Shown here one piece after another: positions 15,293 through 33,755 of a stretch of DNA of 33,755 nt (within the stretch, counting starts at the first letter, position 1; each line of letters starts with the position of its first letter). The stretch lies in NCBI GenBank assembly GCA_020437805.1, contig JAGQVV010000007.1:21485-55239 (forward strand), in the 5' to 3' direction. Source of the DNA: Flavobacteriales bacterium. Its GTDB lineage: Bacteria > Bacteroidota > Bacteroidia > Flavobacteriales_F > PHOS-HE28. The notes beneath the pieces were generated by a model that saw only the letters and a program-made list of their open reading frames with translations, searched no databases and had not been told where the DNA came from. The position numbers and the translations under genes were made by a program.

Positions 15293-15490
15293 CTACTCGT
15301 CGAGCAATGTCCTGAGTGCGTGGGTCCGTGCCACTTTCACCGCAAGCACCAACAAGGCCGATGCCTGTACCACCGTTCCGAAGAGCAGTTGGATGTTGGC
15401 CGTGGGCCAGTGTAGCAGTTTGAAGATGCCTCCGATGGTGATCATTGCAGTACCGACCAACAGCAGGGAAAGTGCGATCCGGGTCTTCAT
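15293..15490 (-). CDS. 65-residue two-helix membrane protein resembling the GldL membrane domain (copy 1)
   Basis: Two hydrophobic helices (about 5-23 and 33-52) flank a short loop with FKLLHWP at 23-29. The F-K-x-x-H-x-P signature between two helices is what the N-terminal membrane domain of GldL shows. GldL is the inner-membrane motor subunit that, with GldM, powers T9SS secretion and gliding. The long cytoplasmic tail of GldL is absent, so this is not GldL itself. The copy aligns without gaps to its neighbour at 15550-15747, with about 25 of 65 positions identical by my count, so the two are tandem paralogs. It is the last gene of a three-gene minus-strand unit. Function is unknown; a link to energised membrane complexes is a guess based on likeness. 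Confidence 0.75.
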   Translation of the reverse strand: MKTRIALSLLLVGTAMITIGGIFKLLHWPTANIQLLFGTVVQASALLVLAVKVARTHALRTLLDE

Positions 15491-15549
15491 GGTTCCAAGG
15501 TTTTCATGATGAATGCATGACCAAGGGATGGGTAACGGTCTTGACCCGA

Positions 15550-15747
15550 TCAGCGGTCCAGGAAGTCCTTGAAGCCGGGGTATCGGGATACTTTCAATGC
15601 GAGAATGAACACGGCGACCGCCTGAATGGATGAAGCCGAGATCAGGATAGCTCCGGTATTGGGCCAGTGTTGGATCTTGAACAAGTTCCCGATGATCCCG
15701 ATACCAAGACCCAACAGCAGGAGTACGATCGCACCACGTGCGGTCAT
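15550..15747 (-). CDS. 65-residue two-helix membrane protein resembling the GldL membrane domain (copy 2)
   Basis: Same length and architecture as the downstream paralog: helix 1 at about 6-23, the FKIQHWP loop motif at 23-29, helix 2 at about 34-52, then a short basic-acidic tail ending FLDR (copy 1 ends LLDE). Its start overlaps the stop of the VOC gene by ATGA, which supports this start codon and translational coupling. A 59-bp gap separates it from copy 1. The His-Trp-Pro core is strictly kept in both copies, which suggests a functional rather than decaying duplication. No known family name can be assigned with confidence beyond the GldL-like membrane region. Confidence 0.75.
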   Translation of the reverse strand: MTARGAIVLLLLGLGIGIIGNLFKIQHWPNTGAILISASSIQAVAVFILALKVSRYPGFKDFLDR

Positions 15748-16160
15748 GCTTTTCGGAACAGGTCCTCGTCGTTCTCGAAGCACTTGAATTCGATGGCGTG
15801 GCCGTCGGGATCTTCGATGAACATGCTGCGTTGTTCACCGACCTGTCCTTTCATCACCACGCTCGGTTCGATGAAGAACTTGACACCCACTTTCTTGAAT
15901 TTGTCGCGCAGCTTTCGCCAATCGGCCAGAGAAAGCACCACGCCCCAATGGGAACTGGGAACGCTGCTTTTCGGATTGTATATCCGGGCGGTGTGGATCA
16001 ACATCGGTACTTCCTGGATAGTGAGTTGATGGCCGAAGAAATCGTAATCCACCCAGGTGTCCGCGCTGCGGCCCTCCTTACAACCCAGGAATTTGCCATA
16101 GAACGCCTTGATACGCTTGATATCCGTGGTCGCAAAGGCAAGATGGAAGGGGCCGGTCAT
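15744..16160 (-). CDS. VOC (vicinal oxygen chelate) family protein
   Basis: A 138-residue glyoxalase/bleomycin-resistance fold protein made of two beta-alpha-beta-beta-beta modules. The first opens FHLAFATTDIKRIKAFYGKFLG and the second SHWGVVLSLADWRKLRDKF. The usual metal-ligand positions appear filled: His6, His71 and Glu124 in DPDGHAIEF. The family spans glyoxalases, extradiol dioxygenases, epimerases and thiol-transfer resistance proteins, and nothing here picks one. A likely cytoplasmic single-domain metalloenzyme. It is the first gene of a unit with the two mini-GldL-like genes. A strong hairpin terminator lies just upstream, so this unit is probably transcribed on its own. Confidence 0.88.
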   Translation of the reverse strand: MTGPFHLAFATTDIKRIKAFYGKFLGCKEGRSADTWVDYDFFGHQLTIQEVPMLIHTARIYNPKSSVPSSHWGVVLSLADWRKLRDKFKKVGVKFFIEPSVVMKGQVGEQRSMFIEDPDGHAIEFKCFENDEDLFRKA

Positions 16161-16633: not shown

Positions 16634-17608
16634 TCACATATCGAGGACGTAAGCGAAGATGAGGGGCGCTACAATAGTAGCATCACTTTCTATGATGTAC
16701 TTCGGGGTATCGATGTCCAATTTACCCCAGGTGATCTTCTCGTTGGGCACAGCACCGCTGTAGCTGCCGTAGCTCGTGGTGCTGTCGCTTATCTGGCAGA
16801 AGTAGCTCCAGAATGGTGTTTCGCGCTGGAGGTCCTGCTGCAGCATGGGTACCACGCAGATGGGAAAGTCACCGGCGATACCACCACCGATCTGGAAGAA
16901 ACCGATACCTGCGTCCCCGCAGTTGGCCGTGTACCAATCCGCGAGGAACATCATGTATTCGATCCCGCTCTTCATCATGCCGGGCTTGCAATCGCCCACC
17001 ATGCAATGGCCCGCGAAGATGTTCCCCAAGGTGCTGTCCTCCCAACCGGGGCAAATGATCGGCAGGTTCTTTTCGGCCGCGGCCACCATCCAACTGTCCT
17101 TCGGGTCGATCTGGTAGTACTGTTCCAGCACGCCCGATCGGATCATCGCGTAGAAGTACTCGTGAGGAAATCGACGGTCGCCGCTTCTGTCATCCGCGGT
17201 CCAGAGGTCCACTACATGCTTCTCCAGGCGGCGGAAAGCCTCGTGTTCCGGGATACAGGTGTCCGTTACACGATTCATGCCACGGTCCAGAAGAGAACGC
17301 TCTTGCTCCGGTGTCAGGTCGCGATAGTTGGGGACACGTTCATAGTGGTCGTGAGCAACGAGGTTCATCACATCCTCTTCCAGGTTGGCACCGGTGCAAC
17401 TGATGATGTCCACCTTGCCTTGGCGGATCATTTCGGCCAGGATCTTCCCTAATTCCGCGGTGCTCATGGCTCCAGCCAGGGTGATCATCATCTTGCGGCC
17501 CTTGCCCAAATGGGTCTTGTAGCCCTGCGCGGCATCCACGAGAGCAGCTGCATTGAAATGCAGGTAATGCTTCTCCATGAAAGCCGATAACGGTCGTGTG
17601 TTGCTCAT
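16634..17608 (-). CDS. Deoxyhypusine-synthase-family protein
   Basis: A 324-residue NAD-dependent enzyme of the DHS superfamily. NAD-binding segments are seen at TLAGAMSTAELG (43-54) and SCTGANLEEDVMNL (70-83). IGFFQIGGGIAGDFPI lies near 235-250, and NEKITWGKLDID contains Lys296 at the position of the lysine that forms the imine intermediate in eukaryotic DHS. Bacteria lack eIF5A, so such homologs are thought to make homospermidine or a related polyamine by transferring an aminobutyl group rather than modifying a protein. The location just after arginine decarboxylase, whose product agmatine leads to putrescine, supports that. I chose the ATG at 17608; a longer reading from 17686 adds 26 residues unlike the family. 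The exact product is not known. Confidence 0.9.
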   Translation of the reverse strand: MSNTRPLSAFMEKHYLHFNAAALVDAAQGYKTHLGKGRKMMITLAGAMSTAELGKILAEMIRQGKVDIISCTGANLEEDVMNLVAHDHYERVPNYRDLTPEQERSLLDRGMNRVTDTCIPEHEAFRRLEKHVVDLWTADDRSGDRRFPHEYFYAMIRSGVLEQYYQIDPKDSWMVAAAEKNLPIICPGWEDSTLGNIFAGHCMVGDCKPGMMKSGIEYMMFLADWYTANCGDAGIGFFQIGGGIAGDFPICVVPMLQQDLQRETPFWSYFCQISDSTTSYGSYSGAVPNEKITWGKLDIDTPKYIIESDATIVAPLIFAYVLDM

Positions 17609-17674
17609 GTCTTGAGAGGTCGAATATAGAAGGACGGTGGAATATCCGTAGGAGGAGTTGGTTATCGATCGCAG

Positions 17675-17760
17675 GTTGTCAGGCAAGCGAGGTACAGGCG
17701 TCAGAGGTCAGTGGCAAGAGGCACAGGCAAGATGCCATCTACCGACCACCAACTGACAAC
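17675..17760. repeat. Low-complexity stretch bounded by 8-bp inverted repeats
   Basis: GTTGTCAG (17675-17682) and its inverse CTGACAAC (17753-17760) enclose a run of degenerate short words: GGCAAG three times, ACAGGC twice, and AGGTCAG/AGGTACAG variants. It fills the gap between the arginine decarboxylase stop and the DHS-like start. It resembles the drifting heptamer-type repeats found between genes in some bacteria. No coding potential is seen. Confidence 0.4.
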
Positions 17761-17765
17761 TGTCC

Positions 17766-19181
17766 TCACTTCTTCATGGGTTCCTCCATTGGCAAATAAC
17801 CCAGAAGTTGAAGCATGCGCTCCGCGCTTTGCTGTTCTGCGAACACGCGATCTGTGAGCGTGCCGTCCGGTTGACGGTCGATGAGCACGTGCTTCGGTTT
17901 CGGGATCAGGCAGTGCTGGATACCCCCGAAACCACCCAGCGTGTCTTGGTATGCGCCGGTGTTGAAATAGCCGATGTACTGCTTCCTGTCGTCCTGGTAC
18001 TTGGGCATGTAGATCGCATTGATATGCTGCTCACTGTTGTAGTAGTCGTCGCTATCACAGGTCATACCGCCCAGGAATACACGTTCGTACTCGTCGTTCC
18101 AATTGTTCACGGGTAGCATGATGAAGCGCTTGCTGATCGCCCATGTGTCCGGTAGGGTGGTCATGAAGCTCCCGTCGATCATGTTCCAGCGTTCCTTCTC
18201 GTTTTGCTTCTTCTGGTACACGAAACTGAAGAACGTGGCGCCGCTATCGCTCACGGTGAAGCTACCGAACTCACTGAAGATGTCCGGCTCGGCCACGTGG
18301 TTCTCCGCACAGATGTCCTTGATACGGCCCACGATCTCCCCGATCATGTATTCCACATCAAAGCTGAAGTTGAGGCTGTTCTTGATCGGTAGACCACCTC
18401 CGATATCCAAGGTATCCAGTGAAGGGCAGAGCTTCTTCAGGTCACAATAAACGTTCACGCATTTGCTCAATTCGTTCCAGTAGTAAGCCGTGTCAGTGAT
18501 CCCTGTGTTGATGAAGAAGTGCATCAATTTCAAGCGGAATTTCTTCTGCTTGCTCACATTGCGCATGTAGAACGGTATGATGTCCTTGTATCCGATACCC
18601 AGCCGGCTGGTGTAGAATTCGAACTTGGGTGCTTCTTCAGCGGCAATGCGGATCCCGATATCGCATGGCCCTTGTATCACCTCGTCCAACTGCTGGATCT
18701 CAGCCATGTTGTCGATGATCGGTACGATATTGAAACCCCGGTTGGCCAGTTTACCGATGCCGCTGATGTACCGCTCGTCCTTGAACCCGTTGCACAGGAT
18801 GGTGGCGTTCTTGGTGATGCGCCCTCGCTCGATCAGCAATTCGATCATCTCGAGGTCGTATGCACTGCTGGTTTCAAGGTTCACACCCTTGTCCAACACC
18901 TTATCGATAACATAACTGAAGTGGTTGCTCTTGGTGCAATAGAAATATTCGTAACGGCCTTTGTAATCGTGCGTCTTGAAGGCCTGGTCGAAGCACCTCC
19001 GGGCCAATTCGATCTTCTCACCGATCTTGGGCAGGTAGCTGATACGTAAAGGCGTGCCGTGTTTTTCCAGGATCTCGGTCAGTGGCAGGTCGTTCCATAC
19101 GAGACGGTCGTCGTCCAGCTTGAATTCGTCCTTGGGGAAGTCGAAGGTCTGCTCGATCAGGTCGATATAACGGGTCTTCAT
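17766..19181 (-). CDS. speA: Arginine decarboxylase (PLP, alanine-racemase fold)
   Basis: A 471-residue pyridoxal-phosphate enzyme that converts arginine to agmatine, the first step of polyamine synthesis. The N-terminal barrel carries the PLP-binding Lys84 in EYFYCTKSNHFSYV. The C-terminal beta domain holds the GGMTCDSDDYY segment with the active-site Cys-Asp-Ser, matching GxxCDS of fold-III decarboxylases. IGGGLPIKNS is the glycine-rich phosphate-binding loop. It is close to the short Bacteroidota arginine decarboxylases rather than the roughly 650-residue E. coli SpeA. I chose the ATG at 19181; an upstream in-frame ATG at 19289 adds 36 unrelated residues. No agmatinase gene is in the window. 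Diaminopimelate or ornithine decarboxylase activity is the main alternative. Confidence 0.88.
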   Translation of the reverse strand: MKTRYIDLIEQTFDFPKDEFKLDDDRLVWNDLPLTEILEKHGTPLRISYLPKIGEKIELARRCFDQAFKTHDYKGRYEYFYCTKSNHFSYVIDKVLDKGVNLETSSAYDLEMIELLIERGRITKNATILCNGFKDERYISGIGKLANRGFNIVPIIDNMAEIQQLDEVIQGPCDIGIRIAAEEAPKFEFYTSRLGIGYKDIIPFYMRNVSKQKKFRLKLMHFFINTGITDTAYYWNELSKCVNVYCDLKKLCPSLDTLDIGGGLPIKNSLNFSFDVEYMIGEIVGRIKDICAENHVAEPDIFSEFGSFTVSDSGATFFSFVYQKKQNEKERWNMIDGSFMTTLPDTWAISKRFIMLPVNNWNDEYERVFLGGMTCDSDDYYNSEQHINAIYMPKYQDDRKQYIGYFNTGAYQDTLGGFGGIQHCLIPKPKHVLIDRQPDGTLTDRVFAEQQSAERMLQLLGYLPMEEPMKK

Positions 19182-19207
19182 CGAACGGAAAGGGAAGGGT
19201 TGTGCAG

Positions 19208-19228
19208 CGGGTGAGGATAGGACACCCG
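19208..19228 (-). promoter_or_regulatory. Hairpin just upstream of the arginine decarboxylase start
   Basis: CGGGTG pairs with CACCCG around a 9-base loop, ending 27 bp before the ATG at 19181. A weaker GTGT/ACAC stem lies just upstream at 19232-19244. Such structures could affect ribosome access. There is no poly-U, so it is not a terminator. Confidence 0.35.
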
Positions 19229-19289
19229 AGCGTGTAGAGCACACAAGCCCGAATGCCTGAATGGGTGTGGTCCGGTTACGGCCCGGCAA

Positions 19290-22242: not shown

Positions 22243-24462
22243 TCATTCCACCACGGTGCCGCGAATGTTCAAGATGATGCGTTCCGGGACACCGTCGGTG
22301 ATCACGATGATACGACGAAAGAGCGGACCGGGCTGGGCGCGACCCGTGAAAATGATCTCGGTATCGGCCGACCCGCCCGGAGGAACGGGACCTTCCGGCA
22401 CGCGCATGAAGGTGCAGTCGCACTCCGACCGGCTTCCCAAGATGTTCAGAGGAGTCGGGTTGGTGTTGAGGATCGGAAATGGATGGACCTTCTCCACGCT
22501 TTGCTGCAGCAAACCCAGATCAACATCGACATTGCGTTCCGGTGTAGTGAACAGGATGCGTTCCACTTCGATCCGACGTTCCCTTGCGGCACTTGCACTG
22601 TATACCGAGTTCTTCAGGTCGTTCAGGTCATCGCTTACACCGGAGGCCGACTCGTCCTCACCGAACGGCAGTTCCTTTAAACGGAGGACGCCACCTTCGG
22701 CTGCAGTACTGTCCATGAATGGTACGAACGCGCCGTTCATCGCAGTACGGAGATCGCTGCGGAGACTTCCGATCCGCCTCATGGAGAGGTTTTTGTTGTA
22801 TACGTTCTTCGCCAATGGGCTGGCGTGGCCGCGGACCTCCAAGGTCACGTGTTCGCCTTGTTGCAACAACGGAAGCAGCGCCTTTTCGAGTCTCTGCAGA
22901 TCCTCCAAGCCTTTGGCCACTTCACGTTCAAAGAACGAACGAATTGCCGTGGGATCGCTTTGTTGTGCGAAGTATTCGGGCCACAGCGCTTCGTACTTCC
23001 GGTACGTTGTCCTATAGCTCTGTCCGGTGCTGGTGGCCCACGAACGAGGTTCCGGTTCGTCGTTGTGGAAATAGAGCTTCAGCGGCGTTCCGGAGAGGAT
23101 GTCCTCCAGTGGCCCTGTGGTCGGGCCCTGTAAGGGTATGACCACGGCCGTATCCTTTGTGATGCCGGGGATCGGTTTCTTCCAATTGAGCCGGTATAGG
23201 TCGTTGCAGCAGGTTTCTCCTTTCGCCGCATAGGATCCCACGCGATTGCTCGTCAGCCAACCTTCGCCACGTTCCTCATCGATGCAGGGATATAGATCGT
23301 TAGCAGGGCTGTTGATCGGCCTTCCGGCATTCACGGGATCTCCAAAGCTTCCGTCCGATCGTAGATCAGCGTGGAAGATGTCATATCCACCATGGCCCGG
23401 ATGCCAGTCCGATGCGAACCACAACTTTCCTGTGCTATGGTCGAACCAAGGTCCCTGCTCGTTGCCCGGACTGTTCACTGGAGCGCCCACAGGGGCCACG
23501 TTCAATGCTTCACCTTCCCGAAGGTCGGCCTGCCAGATGTCCATGCCACCGCTACCTCCGGCCCGATCCGAAACGAAATAGAGCCGTTGACCACCCGCAT
23601 GTTCCACGATCATGGGCTGGGTGCTCATTTCATCACCCAATCCACTTTGTGGACCAGCACCCATCAGGTCATCGCCACTATGGAAACCTGCATGGATCCG
23701 GCAGCGCTCATCCGGCGGGCAGTAGGTGAAGAGCACCCACTTTCCTCCCACGGTCCAGGTCGTGTTGGCCAGTTCTCCGGGATGGGTCGATGCGACGATC
23801 GCTTTCGGTTCCGACCATCCCGAGGCATTCGGTCGCGCCACAAAGATCCGGGCGTGATAGTCGACCGTATCGATGACCTCACCATCCTCATTCAGTTCGC
23901 CTCTGAGACTCGTGAAGTACAGGGTGGAATCCGGACCGATCCGCGCACCGAATTCGCTGTCGTACGTATTCACCGGTCCCGGTAAATGCTCAAGTTCCAA
24001 GTTGTCCGTGGTGCGCATGGGGTCTTTCGCGATAGCACATCCGATGATGGCTTGCCTGGCCCGAATCGCATTCGGTGAACTCTGGTCCTTTTCCTTCTCC
24101 AACACCTTGAGCCATGTTCGTTCGGCATCATCATAGGCGCCGGTGCACAGCTGCATTTCCCCCAGCCAGCGCAATGCATTCTTATAGGTCCGCCCCATAT
24201 CCTTGCGATGGACCTTTTCGTAGAGTTCCGCGGCAAGAATGTATTGGTTGCTGAGCCGGGATGCCTCGGCCTGCTTCCATTGCAGGGACATGCGTCCGGG
24301 CTCGACCTGCAGTGCACCAGCATAGAATCTTGACGCACCGTAGTACTCTCCTTTGGTCATGGCGGCATCACCCCAATACGTCCATTGCTCCAAGCTCTGC
24401 CCGTTGACGTCGGTCATCGTTGTGGTGAGGAGCATGAATAGGAATGGTCCAGCGGCCTTCAT
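22243..24462 (-). CDS. PorE-like protein: TPR, PD40 propeller, OmpA-like and DUF1573-like domains
   Basis: A 739-residue exported protein. A signal peptide (about 1-22, ending VNGQ) is followed by TPR-like helices (about 25-145) and PD40/WD40-like propeller blades (about 160-430). The blades repeat phrases such as LYFVSDRAGGSGGMDIW and LWFASDWHPGHGGYDIF. An OmpA-like domain follows near 535-650 (VTLEVRGHASPLAKNVYN, then LSMRRI). The last 75 residues (CDCTFMRVPEGPVPPGGS) look like the DUF1573 Ig-like fold. TPR-PD40-OmpA is the layout of PorE, which ties the T9SS outer-membrane complex to peptidoglycan. The DUF1573-like ending is extra. It lies 6 bp after a PorP/SprF gene, which fits a T9SS accessory role. 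Whether it is the core PorE or a dedicated paralog is unclear. Confidence 0.85.
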   Translation of the reverse strand: MKAAGPFLFMLLTTTMTDVNGQSLEQWTYWGDAAMTKGEYYGASRFYAGALQVEPGRMSLQWKQAEASRLSNQYILAAELYEKVHRKDMGRTYKNALRWLGEMQLCTGAYDDAERTWLKVLEKEKDQSSPNAIRARQAIIGCAIAKDPMRTTDNLELEHLPGPVNTYDSEFGARIGPDSTLYFTSLRGELNEDGEVIDTVDYHARIFVARPNASGWSEPKAIVASTHPGELANTTWTVGGKWVLFTYCPPDERCRIHAGFHSGDDLMGAGPQSGLGDEMSTQPMIVEHAGGQRLYFVSDRAGGSGGMDIWQADLREGEALNVAPVGAPVNSPGNEQGPWFDHSTGKLWFASDWHPGHGGYDIFHADLRSDGSFGDPVNAGRPINSPANDLYPCIDEERGEGWLTSNRVGSYAAKGETCCNDLYRLNWKKPIPGITKDTAVVIPLQGPTTGPLEDILSGTPLKLYFHNDEPEPRSWATSTGQSYRTTYRKYEALWPEYFAQQSDPTAIRSFFEREVAKGLEDLQRLEKALLPLLQQGEHVTLEVRGHASPLAKNVYNKNLSMRRIGSLRSDLRTAMNGAFVPFMDSTAAEGGVLRLKELPFGEDESASGVSDDLNDLKNSVYSASAARERRIEVERILFTTPERNVDVDLGLLQQSVEKVHPFPILNTNPTPLNILGSRSECDCTFMRVPEGPVPPGGSADTEIIFTGRAQPGPLFRRIIVITDGVPERIILNIRGTVVE

Positions 24463-24468
24463 GAGCGC

Positions 24469-25509
24469 TCAAAGTTGATCGGGACAAGCCTTGAATCGTA
24501 CCGGAACGGCGGATCGGTCGCGAAAGATCCGGATGGCCGTGATCTCGAATCCACCGCGGTTGCGGCTTGCAGGAACAAGGCCGCTGGTATTGATATCGTA
24601 GCTCAATCCGAAGGTCCAATCATCGTGCTCGAAACCGGCGTAGAGGTAACCCGCATCAGCGGCCCGGTAGTGCGCGCCGGCCAGCACGGCTCGCCGCAGT
24701 CCATACCGATCCAACAGAAAGTATCGGAGGTTGGCACCGAGGTCCAGTTCGTTGTACCGACCCTGTACCATGTACTGCGCCATCGGAAGGAGATCGAGCA
24801 CTTCCGAGACCGGGAATGAGACCATGGCATGTACTGTACTGCGCAGGTCCAATGGTGTTCCGGGTCCGCCAAGAAAACCGATCTCCGGTGTGGTCAAGTT
24901 GAATATGCCAAGACCCACTTGGAATGAGGTTCGCTTCCTCGGTGCATAACGATACACCAGCCCGGCATGAAGGTCCGGGTGGACAAGCCCGTACCGATCG
25001 AACTGTTCACCGCTCGCCAACGCTGGGTCGTGGTAGAAGCCATTGTATTGTGCGTCGAAGGAAAGCGCGGAAGGGTCCAGGTTGATGGAAGTGAAACCGA
25101 ACTGCAGACCACCGGTAACGGACTGGTCCTTCGTCGCCCCGAAGCGCGTTGTCCAACTGGCGCCAAGGCTGAAATGGAACTGGTCCAAGCGACTATCACC
25201 GGCACGGTCGCTGAAGAGCCAGGCGCCCAGCCCAAGGCCTTTGATGCCTTTGATATTGGCGGCATCACCACCGAAAGCGAAGGTGCGATAGGGCACAGTG
25301 ACCGATCGCCATTGCTGGCGGAAGATCCCGTTGATACGGTAGTCACCGTCGAATGAGCCGATCGTACCCGGGCCGAGCGAAAGGGGAGCGTTGAAGTACT
25401 GTGAAAAGTGGATGTCCTGTGCGTCGATACGGCCGATGGCCGATAGCAACAATACGGTCAGCGCTCCGATCAGCTTCAGGATCCGAGCTGTGCACCGGTA
25501 TGCCCGCAT
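24469..25509 (-). CDS. PorP/SprF-family T9SS outer-membrane protein (module B)
   Basis: A 346-residue predicted beta-barrel. The signal peptide has a basic n-region and LIGALTVLLLSAIG core ending RIDAQ. The family opening QDIHFSQYFNAPLSLGPGTIG follows, then YRINGIFRQQW, and alternating barrel strands run to the end. SprF of Flavobacterium johnsoniae is needed to secrete the type B substrate SprB encoded beside it; this copy likely serves the adhesin encoded immediately upstream. I list the ATG at 25509 because it opens the signal peptide. An ATG at 25557 overlaps the adhesin stop by ATGA and would add 16 residues, so translational coupling from there is also possible. The final Cys-containing segment (FKACPDQL) is outside the usual barrel. 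Confidence 0.88.
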   Translation of the reverse strand: MRAYRCTARILKLIGALTVLLLSAIGRIDAQDIHFSQYFNAPLSLGPGTIGSFDGDYRINGIFRQQWRSVTVPYRTFAFGGDAANIKGIKGLGLGAWLFSDRAGDSRLDQFHFSLGASWTTRFGATKDQSVTGGLQFGFTSINLDPSALSFDAQYNGFYHDPALASGEQFDRYGLVHPDLHAGLVYRYAPRKRTSFQVGLGIFNLTTPEIGFLGGPGTPLDLRSTVHAMVSFPVSEVLDLLPMAQYMVQGRYNELDLGANLRYFLLDRYGLRRAVLAGAHYRAADAGYLYAGFEHDDWTFGLSYDINTSGLVPASRNRGGFEITAIRIFRDRSAVPVRFKACPDQL

Positions 25510-25553
25510 TTGGTCGGCCCCATGGTCCCACACCTGATGTGCAATGCCAGGCA

Positions 25554-28500
25554 TCATCGAACAACGGTCACATTCCCTTTGGTGAAGAAGTGCTGACCGT
25601 CCACACAATACACGGTCAGATGATACACGAATACGGCTGGATCGACGGGTATACCCTGAAACGTTCCGTCCCATCCGCGGCTTTGATCATAGGTCTCGAA
25701 CACCTTTTCGCCCCACCGGTCGAAGACCATGAATTCCAATTCACTTATCGACCGCCCACGGACCAGCAACACATCATTATTGCCGTCCCCGTTGGGTGTG
25801 AAGGTGTTGGGGACGAAGATGTCCGGATCCTCGCACAAGAGCTCGCGTACTTCCACGGTCACTGATGCTTCTCGGGTGCATATCCCATCACTCACCGTAA
25901 CCGTGAAGGTTGTTGTGCTATTCACCGTTGCGGTGGGTGTTCGTGATATCGGGTCGCTTACGGATCCGGCGGGGCTCCAGCCATAGTTGACGCCATCGGA
26001 GGGCCAAGCGGATAGCTGAACGGTCGTTCCCGGTGATACGATCCCTTGGTCCACCGTGGCATTCACTGTGGATCCGACCAAAGGTGACACCTCCACACCG
26101 ATGGTGGATGACCATGTGCATCCGGACTGGGAGACCACGTTGACTGCGTATACCGTTGATGCGTCCGGTGCGATGGTAGCGTTGGTGGTCCCTTGTCCGA
26201 TGAGGATCTCATCATTGGGCATCCAATCGATGGATGATCCAGGGTCTATGCCGAGCAAGAAGAGCTGTGCCGTGTCCTGTGCGCAGATCGTCGTATCGCC
26301 CTGCACGAGGGCATTGACCAACGAAGTGGAGATCACTACACTATCCGTAGCGGCGCATATCGATCCATTGGAAGCGCGAACGTGGTATGTTCCGGCAACG
26401 ATCGGGGAAAGCACGAAAGCACTATCGAGCTCTGGTGCGTTCAAGGTATCATTGAAGGTGTTCGAGGTGCTCCAGACATAGTTCGTTGCCGTTCCGAAAC
26501 CTTGCGCACCAACAATGAGCGCAATGTTTGGGCCACAGATCAACGTGTCGTTCATGGCGATGACGGCGGGTGCATCCGGTTCGATGACGATGGTCCGCAC
26601 TGCGATATCCTGACCATTGCAGCTATTGGGGTCCGAGCTTGTAAGCCGGACGACGTAGGTTCCCGGTTCCGAGTAGGTATGCGTGGGGGAAGTTGAAGTG
26701 GAGGTGCTTCCATCCCCGAACTCCCAGAAATGACCGGTGGCACCGCTGCTCAGGTTGGTGAATGAGACGGAAGCTCCGGCGCAAATGGGATCAGGCGCAG
26801 TGAATGCGGCGATCACGAGTGGTGCATCGAAATCGAATTTGAGTACGCCATTGTTGCATCCGGTGCTATTGTTGGTTGCGCTCCAAGCCCCTGGCGAGGT
26901 CGGGAAATCATCATTGTTCTGGCAACCGGCGCATACCGATTGGTATACACGACCTCGACGATCGAAGCGACTCGTACCGCCATCCACATGCTCGGGGCTC
27001 ACCGCACCGCCGTAGTATGTGGCGTAGGAGAGGCCGTTCATGTTGATGTCGAACACGGCGAGATAGAGGTCATGTCCATCGGTTGTGGACTGGTGTGCCG
27101 CGCTGGTGACCGGGAGACCAGCGGTGGTCAGTGTACCTCCAAGCCCACCAGCGCTACTACCCCAACCACTGGTGTAGATCTTGTCGCAAACATCCACAAG
27201 GAAGGCGGTAGGGGAGATGTCCGGTGTACCGTCGCCACTTCCGATGCGAGAGCTGATCAGAACGTTCGCGAGTTCATGGTCCAGTTTCGTGATGAACTGG
27301 CCACCGCTCGGAACGTTGTAGGGTGCGTTGCTGATAAGTTGTCCCGCCGGTGCCGAGGTTTGGCCGAAGAGATAAACGGATCCAGCGTCATCGAGTTCCA
27401 CGAAGTAGCTCTGGTCATATGCATCGGAGCCCCAGTAGCTCATTGCCTCGATCCCGATGCCCGGTACGACCCTTCCCACGAAGGCATCGGCCGCACCGCC
27501 ATTGAACGATGTGGATACTGCTGCTGATGTCGTCTGCAGATCCAGGCTGTTGGTACCGCCGGTTATGAAGAGCCTCCCGGCCTCATCCAATTCGCCCGCG
27601 TACAGTGCATCCGCTCCGCTTCCACCGATGTAGCTTGCATACTGCAACTGGGTCAAAGCCGGGTCAAGGCGGGCGACGTATCCGTCATGGGAACCTCCGG
27701 CGAATGAAGGCTGTGCCGCATCCCCGGTGGTGGACAGGTCCATGCTTTGGGAACAACTGACCACCCACACATTTCCTGCGGTATCCAGAAGCACCTCTCC
27801 CCGCACTTCATCAGCATAGTTGAACTTCAACGCTGGAGCGGAGTTAAGACCATCGTTGCCGGTGCCGCCGATGAAGGTTGATCCCAAGAGATCACTTCCA
27901 TCATTGCTCAAACGCGCAAGGATCATGTCGCTCCCGGCCGGATAGCTCAACCCTAGACCAGAAGGAGCGAAGCTCGAACCCCCTTCGAAGCTGCCATCAT
28001 AGGCTCCGCTGGTTACCGGGAAATCACTCGAGCCCGTTGTTCCGAGGACCAACACTTCACCGTTACCATCCACGATCAGGCTGTGAGGCATTTCGTCGGA
28101 TGCACCACCGAGATAGGTGCTCCAGATCAGGAATGAGCCGGTCGTGTCGTACTTGGTGATGGCGATATCCGTGCCGGGTATCGTACCCTGGCCCACGCCA
28201 CCTGCCCAAGAGGTCTGGTAGGCCCCCATGGTGACCGGGAAGGCCGTGCCGAAAGCGGTGCTACCAGCGTACAGGAAGCCTGCGTCATCGAACGTTGCAC
28301 TGTAACCGAAGTTGTTACTGAATGATCCTGAGTAAGTGGCGAAGGCAAGTGTGGGGTCGATGACGAGTGGAGATCGTGGGTCGTACTCGCCCGGTTCAAC
28401 ACCGATGATACCGTTCTTCAGGGTGTAGGTGCATGCAACGATGCGACGCCCACCGTCCACATCCTGATAGGCCAATGGGATCCGTTCGGTAAGTCGACCG

Positions 28501-29072
28501 AGCGATGTACTGACGATCAAGACCCCGTTCCGAAGTCGCAGTTCATCCGCACCATCATAGGTGAATCGGATCAAGGCCGGGTCTGCGCCTGGAGCAAGGG
28601 TCAGGTCGTACTTCAATCCGGAATGACCCATTCGGAAGCGTGCATCGCAACCTGGCGCTACTTCCACCAGATCGACCGTTGCGAACGCTCTGGCGTTACC
28701 TGCCCAACGAGAGCGATCGGAACCGATGAAATAGTTATGGTGCCCGGGTAGGGGAGGACCACCATTGATACGATTGCTCGAAGTGGCGCTCAGGAATCTT
28801 AGCCGAACGGCATGGTGCTGAAGCGGATCGGCATGGGCCGCGTCGAACCCCACATTCGCATGGGGTTCCGAGATCCGCTTTGCATCATAGAGGTCCAGCA
28901 CGACACCGTCCGCCTCACACCACACGGTCGCACCAGGGATCTCGGAACGAAAGAACACGTCTTTGGGCCACTGCCCCTTGTTCTCCACGAATCGTAGTCC
29001 GGGCTGCGCTCGGAAAGGAAGTCCTAGGAGCAGAAGTGCGGTGAAGATCAGATACCGTGGAGCGCGGAGCAT
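25554..29072 (-). CDS. T9SS type B secreted surface protein (SBBP-like repeats, PKD, CHU_C)
   Basis: A 1172-residue T9SS cargo. A signal peptide (about 1-23) is followed by an N-terminal domain opening FVENKGQWPKDVFF, common in large Bacteroidota surface proteins. From about 240 to 690 there are beta-propeller (SBBP-type) repeats recognisable as STYLGGASDE, STFIGGTGND, ASYIGGSGAD and ATYYGG. A PKD domain lies near 755-845 (FWEFGDGSTST). Ig-like modules follow (NDTLICGPN, QGDTTICAQD). The last 95 residues are the CHU_C type B sorting domain (NTFTPNGDGNND, FDRWGEKVFE, GWDGTFQG), which directs T9SS export and surface attachment. I chose the ATG at 29072. It heads module B, with PorP/SprF and PorE-like genes directly after. 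The ligand is unknown. Confidence 0.93.
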   Translation of the reverse strand: MLRAPRYLIFTALLLLGLPFRAQPGLRFVENKGQWPKDVFFRSEIPGATVWCEADGVVLDLYDAKRISEPHANVGFDAAHADPLQHHAVRLRFLSATSSNRINGGPPLPGHHNYFIGSDRSRWAGNARAFATVDLVEVAPGCDARFRMGHSGLKYDLTLAPGADPALIRFTYDGADELRLRNGVLIVSTSLGRLTERIPLAYQDVDGGRRIVACTYTLKNGIIGVEPGEYDPRSPLVIDPTLAFATYSGSFSNNFGYSATFDDAGFLYAGSTAFGTAFPVTMGAYQTSWAGGVGQGTIPGTDIAITKYDTTGSFLIWSTYLGGASDEMPHSLIVDGNGEVLVLGTTGSSDFPVTSGAYDGSFEGGSSFAPSGLGLSYPAGSDMILARLSNDGSDLLGSTFIGGTGNDGLNSAPALKFNYADEVRGEVLLDTAGNVWVVSCSQSMDLSTTGDAAQPSFAGGSHDGYVARLDPALTQLQYASYIGGSGADALYAGELDEAGRLFITGGTNSLDLQTTSAAVSTSFNGGAADAFVGRVVPGIGIEAMSYWGSDAYDQSYFVELDDAGSVYLFGQTSAPAGQLISNAPYNVPSGGQFITKLDHELANVLISSRIGSGDGTPDISPTAFLVDVCDKIYTSGWGSSAGGLGGTLTTAGLPVTSAAHQSTTDGHDLYLAVFDINMNGLSYATYYGGAVSPEHVDGGTSRFDRRGRVYQSVCAGCQNNDDFPTSPGAWSATNNSTGCNNGVLKFDFDAPLVIAAFTAPDPICAGASVSFTNLSSGATGHFWEFGDGSTSTSTSPTHTYSEPGTYVVRLTSSDPNSCNGQDIAVRTIVIEPDAPAVIAMNDTLICGPNIALIVGAQGFGTATNYVWSTSNTFNDTLNAPELDSAFVLSPIVAGTYHVRASNGSICAATDSVVISTSLVNALVQGDTTICAQDTAQLFLLGIDPGSSIDWMPNDEILIGQGTTNATIAPDASTVYAVNVVSQSGCTWSSTIGVEVSPLVGSTVNATVDQGIVSPGTTVQLSAWPSDGVNYGWSPAGSVSDPISRTPTATVNSTTTFTVTVSDGICTREASVTVEVRELLCEDPDIFVPNTFTPNGDGNNDVLLVRGRSISELEFMVFDRWGEKVFETYDQSRGWDGTFQGIPVDPAVFVYHLTVYCVDGQHFFTKGNVTVVR

Positions 29073-29123
29073 CACCCACGAAAGTACCGTAAGGATCACG
29101 CTCAACGTGCTCAATTCAGCAAC

Positions 29124-29151
29124 CAACCGTGGAAGCACATAGCTTCGGTTG
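29124..29151 (-). terminator. Hairpin between the two T9SS modules
   Basis: On the minus strand CAACC-GAAGC pairs with GCTTC-(CAC)-GGTTG around a 5-base loop, with a 3-base bulge on one side. It begins 26 bp after the OmpA-protein stop and precedes the module B start. No U-run follows, so it may be an attenuator or processing site rather than a full terminator. Confidence 0.4.
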
Positions 29152-29177
29152 CACGAGGAAGAAATCGAATGGAGCGC

Positions 29178-31367
29178 CTAGCGCGTCTTCTGGAAGGCAT
29201 GGTCTTCGCCTTTCACCGTCATGCGGAACTCCACACGTCGGTTCTCTTGGCGGCCTTCTTCGGTCCTGTTCGAGGCAATGGGTTGGTTCTTGCCATGACC
29301 GACCGGGACCAATCGATCCGCGGCGATCCCTTGTGCTTCCAGATATGCTTGCACTGAACCCGCGCGCTGCTCGGACAATTCGAAGTTGTAGGAACGACTG
29401 CCGATATCATCGGTGTGCGCTTCGATCACGAGTCGGACCTCGGGATGTTGACGCATCATATCCGTGATACGATCGAGCACCTCCTCCGATCCAGGCGCGA
29501 TATCCGCACTCTTGTATTCAAAGTGTATCGCGCTGGTCCGAAGCTTGGTATTGTTCAGTTCCTCCAGCGAACGAAGGTCGAGCTGACTGAGGTCCACAAG
29601 CTGTTCCAATTGGAGCTGGAACACCTCGGCGTCCAGGAACTGCAGTTCCTTCACCTTCTGGAATACCTTGTAGAGCTCCGCCATGTCGTTGGTCTCGCCG
29701 ACCGAGTATGTGTAGACAGCACGTACGGGATCGAAGCGCTCCACCACACGGTAGAGTTTGCGTACCTCCGCGAATTTCGGGTCATCAAGGCTCATTCGTT
29801 CCATGGACGCGAACAGTTCCACGGAGAAGGTCGCATCAGCGAAGTCATCCTCGGTCATGCCGAAGTGGTCGGGCGGTAGCTCTTGGTATTCGAAGGAGTG
29901 CGTCTTGCCGAGCGCATCTTGGTACGTCGCCACCACAGCCATGTCCTCTTGGTCCTTGAATTTGTCCAGCACGACAATGGTCCTTGTGTTGCATCGATTA
30001 CGGATGATCCCGTTCGCATCCGGGGTCGAAAGGACGTCCAGTTTGACCTCATACACACCCTGCTTGCGGAACGTGTGTTGGGCATGAAGGCCCACCTCAA
30101 GCATGCCATCGCCCATGTCCCAATGATACTCGTTCGCCACCATGCCTTGGAGCTGGCTGCGTGTCCCATCCAAGGCCAACGCGCGACCTGTTCGAACCGT
30201 ATCAGGTGAGCTGATCCAAGCTTGGAAATGGTCATCGATCGCGAGTTCATGTGCCTCGAGTTCGTGGAAGACCGATCCGGTCTTGCGGTCCACGAGCAAG
30301 GAGCGTACCTGGTAGTTTCCGGGTTCGGCAAAGCAGTGTTCGGCCACCAGGTCCTTGACCCGTGTCCCATCCCCAAGGTCCCAGACATGCTCCAGCGGCA
30401 GTGAGCGTGTCGCGGCGTGCGGCTTTGCATTGAAGGCGTAACAGTAGTTGTTCTTGATCTGCGCGGAACAATCCCGGAACTTCGGTACGGTCTTCTTGAA
30501 TGCGTAGATGCGATCCTTTCCGTCCCTGTCCGAACTGAACAACCCGGTCCTGGCACTTTCCCGGACGGTCATCCCGAGATCGTTCCCCGGCGAGTTGATC
30601 GGAGCCGGAAGATGAACGGGTGCTGTTCGTTCGGTGTTCGGCCAAGAACTTCGATAGATATCCAGTTTGCCCGAACCACCTGTCCGGTCACTGGAGAAAT
30701 ACATTGAACCGTCTGGCGCGATGTTCGGGAAGCCTTCGTTGTGTTCTGTGTTGATGGAAGCCCCCATGTTCTCAGGCACGCTCCATCCCATGGCTGTGCG
30801 TGTGCTGATGTACAGGTCCAATCCCCCGTATCCACCGGGCATGTCACTGGCGAATACCAGTGTGTTTCCGGAGGCATCGAAGGCCGGGTGCATGGTGGAG
30901 TACTTCGTTGTATTGTGCTCGAAGGAGACCGGCGGCCCCCATACATCGTTGGTCTTTTCAGAGAAGAAGATCCCGAGCTGGGAGTTCGCGGCCTTCATAT
31001 TGGCCAGCCTTTTGGGAAGGATCTGGTTCCGGGTGAACGCGATCATGTTGCCCTCATCGGAGAAGGAGGCAGGACCTTCGTTCACGGGTGTGGCCAAATT
31101 TGCACTGAACAGGATCGGCGTACCGGGAATGTCTCCGTTCAGCGGGACCCAATAAAGGTCCGCAAGTGGCTTTCCCGTATCGGCATCCTTGAACGCAATG
31201 GCAGTGCCGGTCTCTCGGATCGAGCACATCACGAACCCATCGCCAATAAGGACTGGGGCGTAGTCCTCTGTTAGTGGCCCAAGGTCCAGTTGTACCACCT
31301 CATGGATCTCCTGCGCTCGCGCGAGGAACGCCGTGAGAATGGATATGGTGATCAGCGCGATCCTCAT
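29178..31367 (-). CDS. OmpA-family protein with PD40 propeller, two PKD domains and SPOR-like segment (module A)
   Basis: A 729-residue exported protein. A signal peptide (1-18, ending ARAQ) is followed by PD40 blades at about 30-300 (TLVFASDMPGGYGGLDLY, SMYFSSDRTGGSGKLDIY). Two PKD-type domains lie near 300-385 (VWDLGDGT) and 390-475 (HWDMGDGM). A segment at about 510-590 with VELFASMERM and VYTYSVGETNDMAELYKVFQKVKE resembles SPOR-like repeats. A canonical OmpA domain closes the protein at about 612-725, with the peptidoglycan-binding Asp and Arg in EAHTDDIGSRSYNFELSEQRA. It likely spans from the cell wall to an outer-membrane T9SS partner. Its start overlaps the PorP/SprF stop by 1 bp (TGATG). 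It occupies the same place in module A as the PorE-like protein in module B but has different middle domains and no TPR. Confidence 0.9.
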   Translation of the reverse strand: MRIALITISILTAFLARAQEIHEVVQLDLGPLTEDYAPVLIGDGFVMCSIRETGTAIAFKDADTGKPLADLYWVPLNGDIPGTPILFSANLATPVNEGPASFSDEGNMIAFTRNQILPKRLANMKAANSQLGIFFSEKTNDVWGPPVSFEHNTTKYSTMHPAFDASGNTLVFASDMPGGYGGLDLYISTRTAMGWSVPENMGASINTEHNEGFPNIAPDGSMYFSSDRTGGSGKLDIYRSSWPNTERTAPVHLPAPINSPGNDLGMTVRESARTGLFSSDRDGKDRIYAFKKTVPKFRDCSAQIKNNYCYAFNAKPHAATRSLPLEHVWDLGDGTRVKDLVAEHCFAEPGNYQVRSLLVDRKTGSVFHELEAHELAIDDHFQAWISSPDTVRTGRALALDGTRSQLQGMVANEYHWDMGDGMLEVGLHAQHTFRKQGVYEVKLDVLSTPDANGIIRNRCNTRTIVVLDKFKDQEDMAVVATYQDALGKTHSFEYQELPPDHFGMTEDDFADATFSVELFASMERMSLDDPKFAEVRKLYRVVERFDPVRAVYTYSVGETNDMAELYKVFQKVKELQFLDAEVFQLQLEQLVDLSQLDLRSLEELNNTKLRTSAIHFEYKSADIAPGSEEVLDRITDMMRQHPEVRLVIEAHTDDIGSRSYNFELSEQRAGSVQAYLEAQGIAADRLVPVGHGKNQPIASNRTEEGRQENRRVEFRMTVKGEDHAFQKTR

Positions 31368-32290
31368 CAGAAGTAGCGTGGGTCCTTGACACGGATCCGG
31401 TATCCGAATTCGTATTGAAGCATCAGTTCATGTGATCCGGCGTGATACGGTGCCAGGTCGGATACACCCAGGTCATAGGCGTAGCCCAAACGCCATTGTG
31501 CGGTCGGCAATACCTCGAGCGAGGCCACGAACGCATCGCCGGTCCGGTAGGAAGCCCCAAGCCAGAGCCTATCCTTCAGGATCAGGTTCGTGCTCATGTC
31601 GGCTTGAATGCCTTCGGTGGCCTTGTATCGTAGCAAAGTGGACGGTTTCAACTTGGTGTCGGCATTGATACGGAAAACGTAGCCGCCGGTTACCATTGGC
31701 TGCAGGTCCGCGCTGTTGTCGGATAGGTTCCAGCCTTCGGAACCCGCGTCGTACCTATAGGAAAGGATGAAAGGAGAGGAGACCCCCACGAACCAGGTCT
31801 TCGTGTAGTAATAAGCGCCAGCACTGAAGTTCGGGCGCACTGCATTGCGGGTATCGGCCGCGAACGCCTGGTCGCTGCTTTGCTGGATGGACAGGCTGGT
31901 CCATTCACTTCGTAACATGGTCACCCCGGCGCCAAGGCCCAAGGACAACTTGCCGTTGTTGAGACGGACCCTATATGCGTAGTTGGTGAACAGTCCCGTT
32001 TCATTGCTCACGCCGATCTTATCGTTATAGAGCATCAGACCGAGACCTAACTTCCGGCGGCCCATTGGGGCGTGAACACTAAGCATCTGTGTGACCGGAG
32101 CTCCTTCGAAGCCTGCCCATTGGTGTCGGTAGGTCAAGTTCGCGGTCAATGCGTCCCGGCTCCCTGCATAGGCAGGATTGATGACAAGCCCATTGAACAG
32201 ATACTGGCTCGTCAGGGGCGTATGCTGTCCTAGACAATGCAAGGAGAGCAGGCTTGATAGTGCCCAAAGGACATTTCCCTTACCCCTCAT
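31367..32290 (-). CDS. PorP/SprF-family T9SS outer-membrane protein (module A)
   Basis: A 307-residue protein with a signal peptide (WALSSLLSLHCLGQ) and the strongly conserved family start PLTSQYLFNGLVINPAYAGSRDAL, then YRHQWAGFEGAPVTQMLSVHAP. Repeating amphipathic strands point to an outer-membrane barrel of normal length. It is more canonical than the module B copy: the NPAYAG motif is intact here but reads APLSLGPGTIG there. Its start overlaps the upstream adhesin stop by ATGA and its stop overlaps the OmpA-protein start, so all three are translationally linked. It most likely assists export or surface anchoring of the adhesin encoded just before it. Confidence 0.95.
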   Translation of the reverse strand: MRGKGNVLWALSSLLSLHCLGQHTPLTSQYLFNGLVINPAYAGSRDALTANLTYRHQWAGFEGAPVTQMLSVHAPMGRRKLGLGLMLYNDKIGVSNETGLFTNYAYRVRLNNGKLSLGLGAGVTMLRSEWTSLSIQQSSDQAFAADTRNAVRPNFSAGAYYYTKTWFVGVSSPFILSYRYDAGSEGWNLSDNSADLQPMVTGGYVFRINADTKLKPSTLLRYKATEGIQADMSTNLILKDRLWLGASYRTGDAFVASLEVLPTAQWRLGYAYDLGVSDLAPYHAGSHELMLQYEFGYRIRVKDPRYF

Positions 32291-33755
32291 CGTTTGATCA
32301 CCACGAAGCCGTTATACGAATGGTCGTCTGATAGGTTCAGGACGTAGAAGTACGTGTCGTCAGCCAGTTCCAGGCCGTTCCTTGATCGACCGTCCCAATC
32401 GTTGTTGTACGCGTTGTTCTCGTACACTTTCTTACCCCATCGATTGAAGATGATCAAAGTGCTTCCCGGGTATGCCGAAATGCCGGTGATCTCGAAGCGA
32501 TCATTGTCCCCGTCCTGGTTCGGGGAGAAACCTTCAGGGATGAACAGGTCCTTGAGGTGGACGTTCACCGTGTCGCGATCGCCGATGCAACCGCCCAATG
32601 ATACGGTGATCACGAACGTATTGAGCCCTGAGCTCAGTCCACTTACCTCGGTGTGCGCCTCGTTCGGTGAATGGACGGATCCGGATCCATTCAATAGCGA
32701 CCATTCGATCGTCGCTCCGGTCGAGGCTGTGGCCTCCAGGTACGTGGATGGAACAACTTCCAACACTTGGTCGGGACCGGCATCAACAACCAAGTGACTG
32801 CCGGGGTCAAGGAAGGTGATCCGCACGACGTCCGATGAGGAACAGGGACCGCTGGTGACCGTCCAAGTGAAGTCGTATGTTCCGGGGGCGGCATTCGTTA
32901 CCAATGCGGTAGTTGACCCGACCGGTACCAAGTCTATCGCGAAGGGTCCGGACCATGTCCCGGTTCCGAAGTCCTTGGACCCATGCAGCGTGTAAGTGTT
33001 ACCGCATACCGAATCATCGGGTCCGGCATCGGCGGATGGTGCGTTCCCTACATTGATCGATCCACTGGCAGAGGCGGAGCAGCCGTCCTGCTGCACGAGA
33101 TAGGTTACTTGGATGTCTCCTGACAGACCTGTCGGGTCGAACATGCCGTCGGACACGCCGTTTCCGGACCAGGTTCCGCCAGGGTCTCCGGTCACCGCAC
33201 TGTTCAGGTCGATCGGAGCACTGTTGTCACACAGACCTACCGGTACTGACCACCCTGCGCTGGGCGTGCCGAGGAAAGTGATGGATACGGTATCGGTGGC
33301 GGTGCAACCCGGGACGCTAACAGTCCAGATCAGGTCATATGTGCCCGGCACACTGCAGGTCGCAGTGGTGTTAGGATCGCTCAGGTCCGAGAGTGTTACG
33401 GTTCCAGGTACGCTCCAGGTTCCTACACCAGAAGCGTCGAGTTGAACGAGATCGTCACAGGTGCTTTGGTCCGGGCCTGCGTCACTGTCGCATATGATGA
33501 TGCTACCAGCGCATAGGCAATCGTTGCTCCATACATCCCCGATCGTGTTCGGGTCACCATCATCGCAGGTTGAGCCAGGCAATGCAGGTCCGTTCGGAAT
33601 ACCCGCACAATCAAGGCAGGACTCTTCCGTTTGGCCGCATCCACAGTTCCCCGGTTCGACCTTGTTGGGATCGTTCGGGCAACCGTCATTGCAGTCAGCG
33701 GTTCCATCGCTGTCGCTATCGGTATCCGCTGTTCCGCAACCGCAGATGCCGGGTG
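32287..33755 (-). CDS. T9SS type B secreted protein, 5' end beyond window (module A)
   Basis: The reverse strand is open from 33753 to the stop at 32287, so about 488 C-terminal residues are visible and the N-terminus is outside. The first part is Cys- and Asp-rich: CGCGTADTDSDSDGTADC and CPNDPNKVEPGNCGCG resemble thrombospondin type 3-like calcium-binding repeats. A CDDGDPNTIGDVW unit follows. Then come at least three Ig/PKD-like modules, each opening with a DAGPD phrase. The end is a CHU_C type B sorting domain (FIPEGFSPNQDGDNDRF, FNRWGKKVYENNAYNNDWDG). It is therefore a T9SS cargo displayed on the cell surface. Its stop overlaps the PorP/SprF start. A TTG at 33580-33582 could look like a start but sits within the repeat region. 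Confidence 0.92.
   Translation of the reverse strand, partial: PGICGCGTADTDSDSDGTADCNDGCPNDPNKVEPGNCGCGQTEESCLDCAGIPNGPALPGSTCDDGDPNTIGDVWSNDCLCAGSIIICDSDAGPDQSTCDDLVQLDASGVGTWSVPGTVTLSDLSDPNTTATCSVPGTYDLIWTVSVPGCTATDTVSITFLGTPSAGWSVPVGLCDNSAPIDLNSAVTGDPGGTWSGNGVSDGMFDPTGLSGDIQVTYLVQQDGCSASASGSINVGNAPSADAGPDDSVCGNTYTLHGSKDFGTGTWSGPFAIDLVPVGSTTALVTNAAPGTYDFTWTVTSGPCSSSDVVRITFLDPGSHLVVDAGPDQVLEVVPSTYLEATASTGATIEWSLLNGSGSVHSPNEAHTEVSGLSSGLNTFVITVSLGGCIGDRDTVNVHLKDLFIPEGFSPNQDGDNDRFEITGISAYPGSTLIIFNRWGKKVYENNAYNNDWDGRSRNGLELADDTYFYVLNLSDDHSYNGFVVIKR

Follow-up and report, generated by a model that had tools for sequence, protein, structure and literature searches.

The window analyzed here is the final 33.8 kb (33,755 nucleotides; positions 21485-55239) of the 55,239-base contig C233 of a metagenome-assembled (MAG) Bacteroidota genome (85.6% complete, 3.21 Mb, 356 contigs). 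Its minus strand carries two consecutive gene triplets, termed modules A and B, whose six open reading frames (ORFs) have the same order: a protein with a type B C-terminal domain (CTD), a PorP/SprF-family barrel and a PD40 propeller protein (Table 1). Judging from the sequences, each triplet is likely (with a probability of roughly 0.6) to be a type B adhesin cassette of the type IX secretion system (T9SS), in which the barrel would be joined to its propeller partner by a disulfide in module B and would have no such bond in module A. The cassette itself is known; what is new here is a covariation between a cysteine in the C-terminal tail of the barrel and cysteines in the last propeller blade of the partner, and the barrel-partner disulfide that is predicted from it. 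Module A is an ordinary cassette and module B a widespread variant. The chances are about even that a large group of Bacteroidota adhesin cassettes has an outer-membrane barrel covalently linked through a disulfide to the periplasmic propeller protein of the same cassette, with the twin-Cys donor on this scaffold and not on the barrel, and that the scaffolds carrying the divergent OmpA-like 'SPL' domain of module B have also given up canonical peptidoglycan binding.

Cysteines in the C-terminal tail have been reported to form disulfides between SprF and GldK and between PorG and PorK, and a single tail Cys is enough for the PorG-PorK bond in Porphyromonas gingivalis (PMC12635249). Because of these disulfides the tails of the PorP barrels were inspected. 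In the window's genus the C terminus of the barrel is PRYF, without Cys, when the partner is of the OmpA type, and xCPxx when the partner is of the SPL type. Neither barrel of the window has the Cys-x-Cys of SprF, the tails being RVKDPRYF in P0005 (module A) and RFKACPDQL in P0002 (module B). The tail Cys was found to follow the cysteines of the partner's last propeller blade. The blade motif is CC-N-D-I-Y in the SPL and in some OmpA partners and CxxC...C-x-x-I-Y in others, and neither occurs with PRYF barrels. When a strict blade pattern was applied and only intact pairs with the PD40 gene downstream of the PorP gene were counted, tail Cys and blade Cys were concordant in 203 of 203 pairs (123 with both, 80 with neither). 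The rule had been framed on the loci up to L269; 91 pairs, about 85 of them new, came from loci fetched later, and all 91 agree with it. Two loci were considered as exceptions and rejected: L329 has a frameshift that divides its PorP gene between two ORFs, and the partner ORF of L093 is interrupted ahead of the blade. In a scan of whole-protein alignments, one partner column (Cys419 of P0001, the module B partner) and one barrel column (the tail Cys) matched each other with a phi of 1.00 (122/0/0/80), the next-best partner columns reaching 0.86 and 0.77.

On a barrel tree built without the tail, each of the two Cys traits changes four times and always jointly with the other (4/4 concordant). 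Comparison of the dependent and independent fits by Pagel's test gave a likelihood ratio of 41.3 (p = 2.4e-8). In one family both traits were lost together: tails RVVPANRLF and PGNRLL are paired with blades NIGDDIF and TRIDDIF, respectively, and relatives have RIVPCNRLF with NCCDDIF. The proteins that lost these cysteines keep another Cys pair in the same propeller, and this specificity of the joint loss is the best evidence for a putative direct contact.

PorE binds diaminopimelate through Asp576, Asn584 and Arg591 (PMC7192894). The initial annotation had described the third gene product of both modules as an OmpA/PD40 anchor. This description holds for the module A partner P0004, which keeps the peptidoglycan-binding Asp653, Asn661 and Arg668 (codons checked), but it does not fit the module B partner P0001, where Ser548 stands at the Asp position next to Asn556 and Arg563 and where no OmpA match was found in Pfam. 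Among the canonical OmpA partners, Asp, Asn and Arg are present in 27/31 and the motif is missing in 4/31, and in the P0001 family Ser, Asn and Arg lie within an invariant SPL motif in 85 of the 86 members. By hhalign the C-terminal region of the P0001 family was aligned with OmpA over 47 columns spanning the ligand-binding motif (E = 1.3e-6, probability 91%). A model of the SPL domain alone (pLDDT 91) has the beta-alpha-beta order, and its Foldseek matches, all weak and none below E 0.001, fell mostly on OmpA, MotB and Pal domains. A structure search that started from the complete P0001 model returned unrelated propellers only. In a search of solved structures, P0005 retrieved no PorP/SprF relative, and the partner profile retrieved no propeller relative. 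Since the Asp that holds diaminopimelate has been lost, the module B partner probably lacks the usual mode of attachment to the wall. The DUF1573 domain that is fused to the SPL partner in the window's genus occurs in only a few families besides, most relatives being without it.

An association of the tail Cys with partners lacking wall binding (52/52 versus 30/31) was broken by wider sampling, in which twelve OmpA partners, ten of them with a clean Asp/Asn/Arg match, pair with Cys-tailed barrels; for this association phylogenetic pairs gave two contrasts only. Since OmpA partners with the full triad have Cys-tailed barrels, the tail Cys does not track lost wall binding. This bears on the idea that the module B tail Cys bonds GldK as in SprF, giving a track-linked, possibly moving adhesin whose movement would be permitted by the lost wall binding. 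The genome does encode GldK (587 bits) with a conserved Cys in QGCFLGNFKP, its gldJ-adjoining barrel has a two-Cys tail, and 70/70 SPL partners are paired with Cys-tailed barrels. We nevertheless regard bonding to GldK as quite unlikely, because the SprF motif is CxC and module B has a single Cys, because the pairing of Asp/Asn/Arg OmpA partners with Cys-tailed barrels is seen outside the genus, and because the tail Cys tracks the blade Cys of the partner instead. Moreover, mobile adhesins have no adjacent PorE gene (PMC12618676), whereas both barrels of the window are accompanied by a PorE-like gene.

SprA, split over two contigs, and GldK are present in this genome, and therefore a type IX system is present. 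In the mechanism that we propose, the CTD protein would exit through SprA and would be collected and held at the surface by its own PorP/SprF barrel, with the product of the third gene serving as the barrel's periplasmic partner; the presumed CTD-barrel and PorE-PorP binding is adopted from papers on other species. In module A the partner would bind the barrel non-covalently and its OmpA domain would hold peptidoglycan, which would make the adhesin static and wall-anchored. The lone tail Cys of the module B barrel would be disulfide-bonded to Cys419 in the last blade of the partner. As the donor we propose the Cys418-Cys419 pair, in other lineages CxxC...C, a counterpart of the twin Cys with which SprF bonds GldK; the partner, with its altered wall-binding site, may serve as a scaffold. 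If this is true, inter-protein disulfides that bear load would have a second use in type IX secretion, and the same device, applied to a different protein, may be at work in many adhesin carriers that have a PorE-like partner. We know of almost no permanent disulfides between periplasmic proteins, and to our knowledge the first such disulfides in type IX secretion and gliding were the SprF-GldK and PorG-PorK bonds, reported in 2025. A disulfide between PorP and PorE was not mentioned in the literature searched, subscription papers and bioRxiv lying outside the search. The covarying pair names two residues for the predicted bond. Look-alike adhesin cassettes would also split into two chemically distinct kinds, a split that matters for predicting which surface proteins are wall-fixed.

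Several points weigh against the disulfide and the lost wall binding proposed for module B. There are four independent changes only (sign test p = 0.125), and patterns that run through whole clades can be exaggerated by Pagel tests. The loci L009, L103, L113 and L123 of four congeneric genomes, with the order CTD, PD40 (with TPR, without OmpA), PorP, have a tail Cys (PorP tail VPCAKF) and no blade Cys; the CTD protein precedes in L009. For many PorPs with a tail Cys no PD40 gene lies alongside, and some of these may use GldK or an unlinked partner. A VKOR family oxidase was not found in seven genomes, DsbA/DsbB not being included in the search. AlphaFold2 confidence is low just ahead of the CC loop of P0001, and cysteines may also covary because they form separate disulfides or bind metal. 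The wall-binding site of module B retains Asn and Arg, so some wall binding may remain. The retained Asn and Arg and the small number of independent changes, together with the fact that two deep PorP clades hold most of the Cys difference, would also suit another explanation, namely that both modules are ordinary static wall-anchored cassettes, that the cysteines are clade markers without an inter-protein bond and that SPL still binds peptidoglycan. This explanation appears unlikely, considering that both sides were lost together in close relatives, that there is one perfect column per side, and that the change from Asp to Ser is invariant across many families.

Related systems have been described in two species. 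Five operons of Flavobacterium johnsoniae encode a type B substrate together with a PorE homologue and an SprF-like shuttle; for Fjoh_3952, a static attachment to the wall via Fjoh_3951 and Fjoh_3950 has been proposed (PMC12618676). Fjoh_3952-3951-3950 and the four similar operons have the same order as the modules of the window (substrate, SprF-like shuttle, PorE-like gene); that paper describes neither the Cys state nor the SPL/DUF1573 type of partner. From P. gingivalis a PorE-PorP-PG1035 complex has been purified, and six porP-like genes adjoin porE-like genes (PMC9143113). The complex consists of the same three kinds of protein, PorE being composed of TPR, propeller, CRD and OmpA parts, but unlike the window modules its genes were not reported as a single triplet. 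With five operons and a purified complex already published, the proposal of the initial annotation that each adhesin has a self-contained secretion-and-anchoring cassette is not new; the co-inheritance of the third gene was found (see below). In comparison with PorE, P0004 has no TPR and has a PKD domain, whereas P0001 carries TPR, gave no match to CRD and is without the Asp that binds peptidoglycan. The best NCBIfam propeller matches of both partners are NF053607 (CHU_0125-family OmpA-like) and NF052230 (PorE), in both cases with scores far short of the curated cut-offs; with 231 bits (P0004) and 144 bits (P0001) against a PorE cut-off of 600 neither partner qualifies as a PorE ortholog. The modules resemble SprB-SprF in having a CTD protein with its own PorP-family barrel and, as predicted for module B, a periplasmic C-tail Cys for an inter-protein disulfide. 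They differ in that SprF has CxC and bonds GldK, whereas the module B barrel has a single Cys in its tail, the twin Cys being on the PD40 partner.

The order and spacing of the genes were as the initial annotation had described them, all six ORFs being found on the minus strand where it had placed them. Within module A the genes overlap by 4 bp and 1 bp, within module B the gaps are about 45 bp and 6 bp, and about 105 bp separate A from B if the Met start at 29072 is taken. CHU_C and TIGR04131 exceed their cut-offs in both P0006 and P0003, as do PF11751 and TIGR03519 in both P0005 and P0002; P0006 (ORF 32287-33753) is truncated at its N-terminal side by the contig end. Co-divergence was determined with 22 triplets of four congeneric genomes and 2000 within-genome partner shuffles. 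The distances correlated with r = 0.934 (PorP-CTD), 0.842 (anchor-CTD) and 0.935 (anchor-PorP), values which none of the 2000 shuffles reached (maximum 0.83), and in 20/22 triplets the nearest relative was the same module in all three families. Thus the modules retain their partners: the third gene is matched to its adhesin as had been supposed, and there is no free shuffling of partners among the CTD, PorP and anchor families. The co-divergence is also an indirect hint of a possible complex of the three proteins. The words 'two copies' in the initial annotation suggest a duplication. The barrels of A and B are about 26% identical and fall on opposite sides of the deepest split in a tree of 143 PorPs, showing that the modules separated long ago and did not arise by a recent duplication. 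Divergence in place after a tandem duplication would account for the adjacency and identical order of the modules; it was rejected by the PorP tree and is extremely improbable, because each barrel has closer relatives elsewhere and A is nearer to other triplets of the same genome than to B.

The arrangement goes beyond chance: PF11751 was found 13 times in this genome and not once in 14 control genomes, and the gene order recurs in relatives. The 13 PorP genes are arranged in five CTD-PorP-PD40 triplets, four CTD-PorP pairs and one CTD-PD40-PorP set; the remaining three have no CTD or PD40 neighbour, two of them adjoining gldK or a gldK fragment and one adjoining gldJ. The same census in relatives showed that the triplet occurs throughout the class and is not a rarity of this genus. 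Some 50 Bacteroidota loci carry the module B type, in most cases together with DUF7948 or other CTD proteins. Nine further congeneric loci (L044-L051 and L053) also have module A directly before module B, and L043 has module B without module A. At four loci (L065, L068, L082 and L090) double cassettes were seen with the order DUF7948-CTD, PorP, CTD, PorP, SPL partner, that is, one third gene for two adhesin-barrel pairs. PorP genes that adjoin gldJ, encode a two-Cys tail (e.g. CKPKKRRFRVVACPTF) and have no CTD or PD40 neighbour are present on contig C101 of genome G000 (L007) and at the orthologous loci L102, L112, L124, L127, L146, L152 and L158; such a PorP is a candidate gliding-track carrier. 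The two gldK-adjacent PorP copies of G000 are on contigs C182 and C124, the latter with a gldK fragment only, and may reflect strain mixture in the MAG.

Table 1. Positions in the window of the genes and sequence features of modules A and B
Feature	Position	Strand	Description
Module A gene 1, P0006	32287-33755	-	Type B CTD adhesin-like; CHU_C 88.8 bits, TIGR04131; 5' end cut off
Module A gene 2, P0005	31367-32290	-	PorP/SprF-family barrel; PF11751 246 bits; tail RVKDPRYF, no Cys
Module A gene 3, P0004	29178-31367	-	PorE-like; PD40 propeller, PKD and OmpA (peptidoglycan-binding); Pfam/NCBIfam
P0004 peptidoglycan-binding triad codons	29364-29411	-	Asp653, Asn661, Arg668, equivalent to PorE D576, N584, R591
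Module B gene 1, P0003	25554-29072	-	DUF7948, SBBP propeller repeats, PKD and type B CTD (CHU_C); Pfam
Module B gene 2, P0002	24469-25509	-	Divergent PorP/SprF barrel; PF11751 124 bits, TIGR03519 147 bits
P0002 C-tail Cys codon (...RFKACPDQL)	24484-24486	-	Sole PorP column perfectly matching partner Cys, phi 1.00
Module B gene 3, P0001	22243-24462	-	TPR, PD40 propeller, divergent OmpA-like 'SPL' domain and DUF1573
P0001 vicinal Cys418-Cys419 codons, last propeller blade (GETCCNDLY)	23206-23211	-	In 82/82 SPL anchors; Cys419 column phi 1.00
P0001 degenerate peptidoglycan-binding site	22774-22821	-	Ser548 (replaces Asp), Asn556, Arg563; S, N, R in 85/86 relatives
P0001 DUF1573 C-terminal domain, residues 646-737	22249-22527	-	PF07610 48 bits

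Module B is followed, 9 bp further on, by a gene for the dipeptidase PepE (22233 to 21526) and then by MscS and CorA genes; in many congeners, too, ORFs of about 235-240 amino acids closely follow module B. Elsewhere in the window, a 181-amino acid ORF (15293-15838) has a weak, sub-threshold match to the N-terminal part of GldL, on a contig that carries no gldK. Genes resembling those for deoxyhypusine synthase and arginine decarboxylase lie side by side at 16634-19289 and form a bacterial gene pair of polyamine type.

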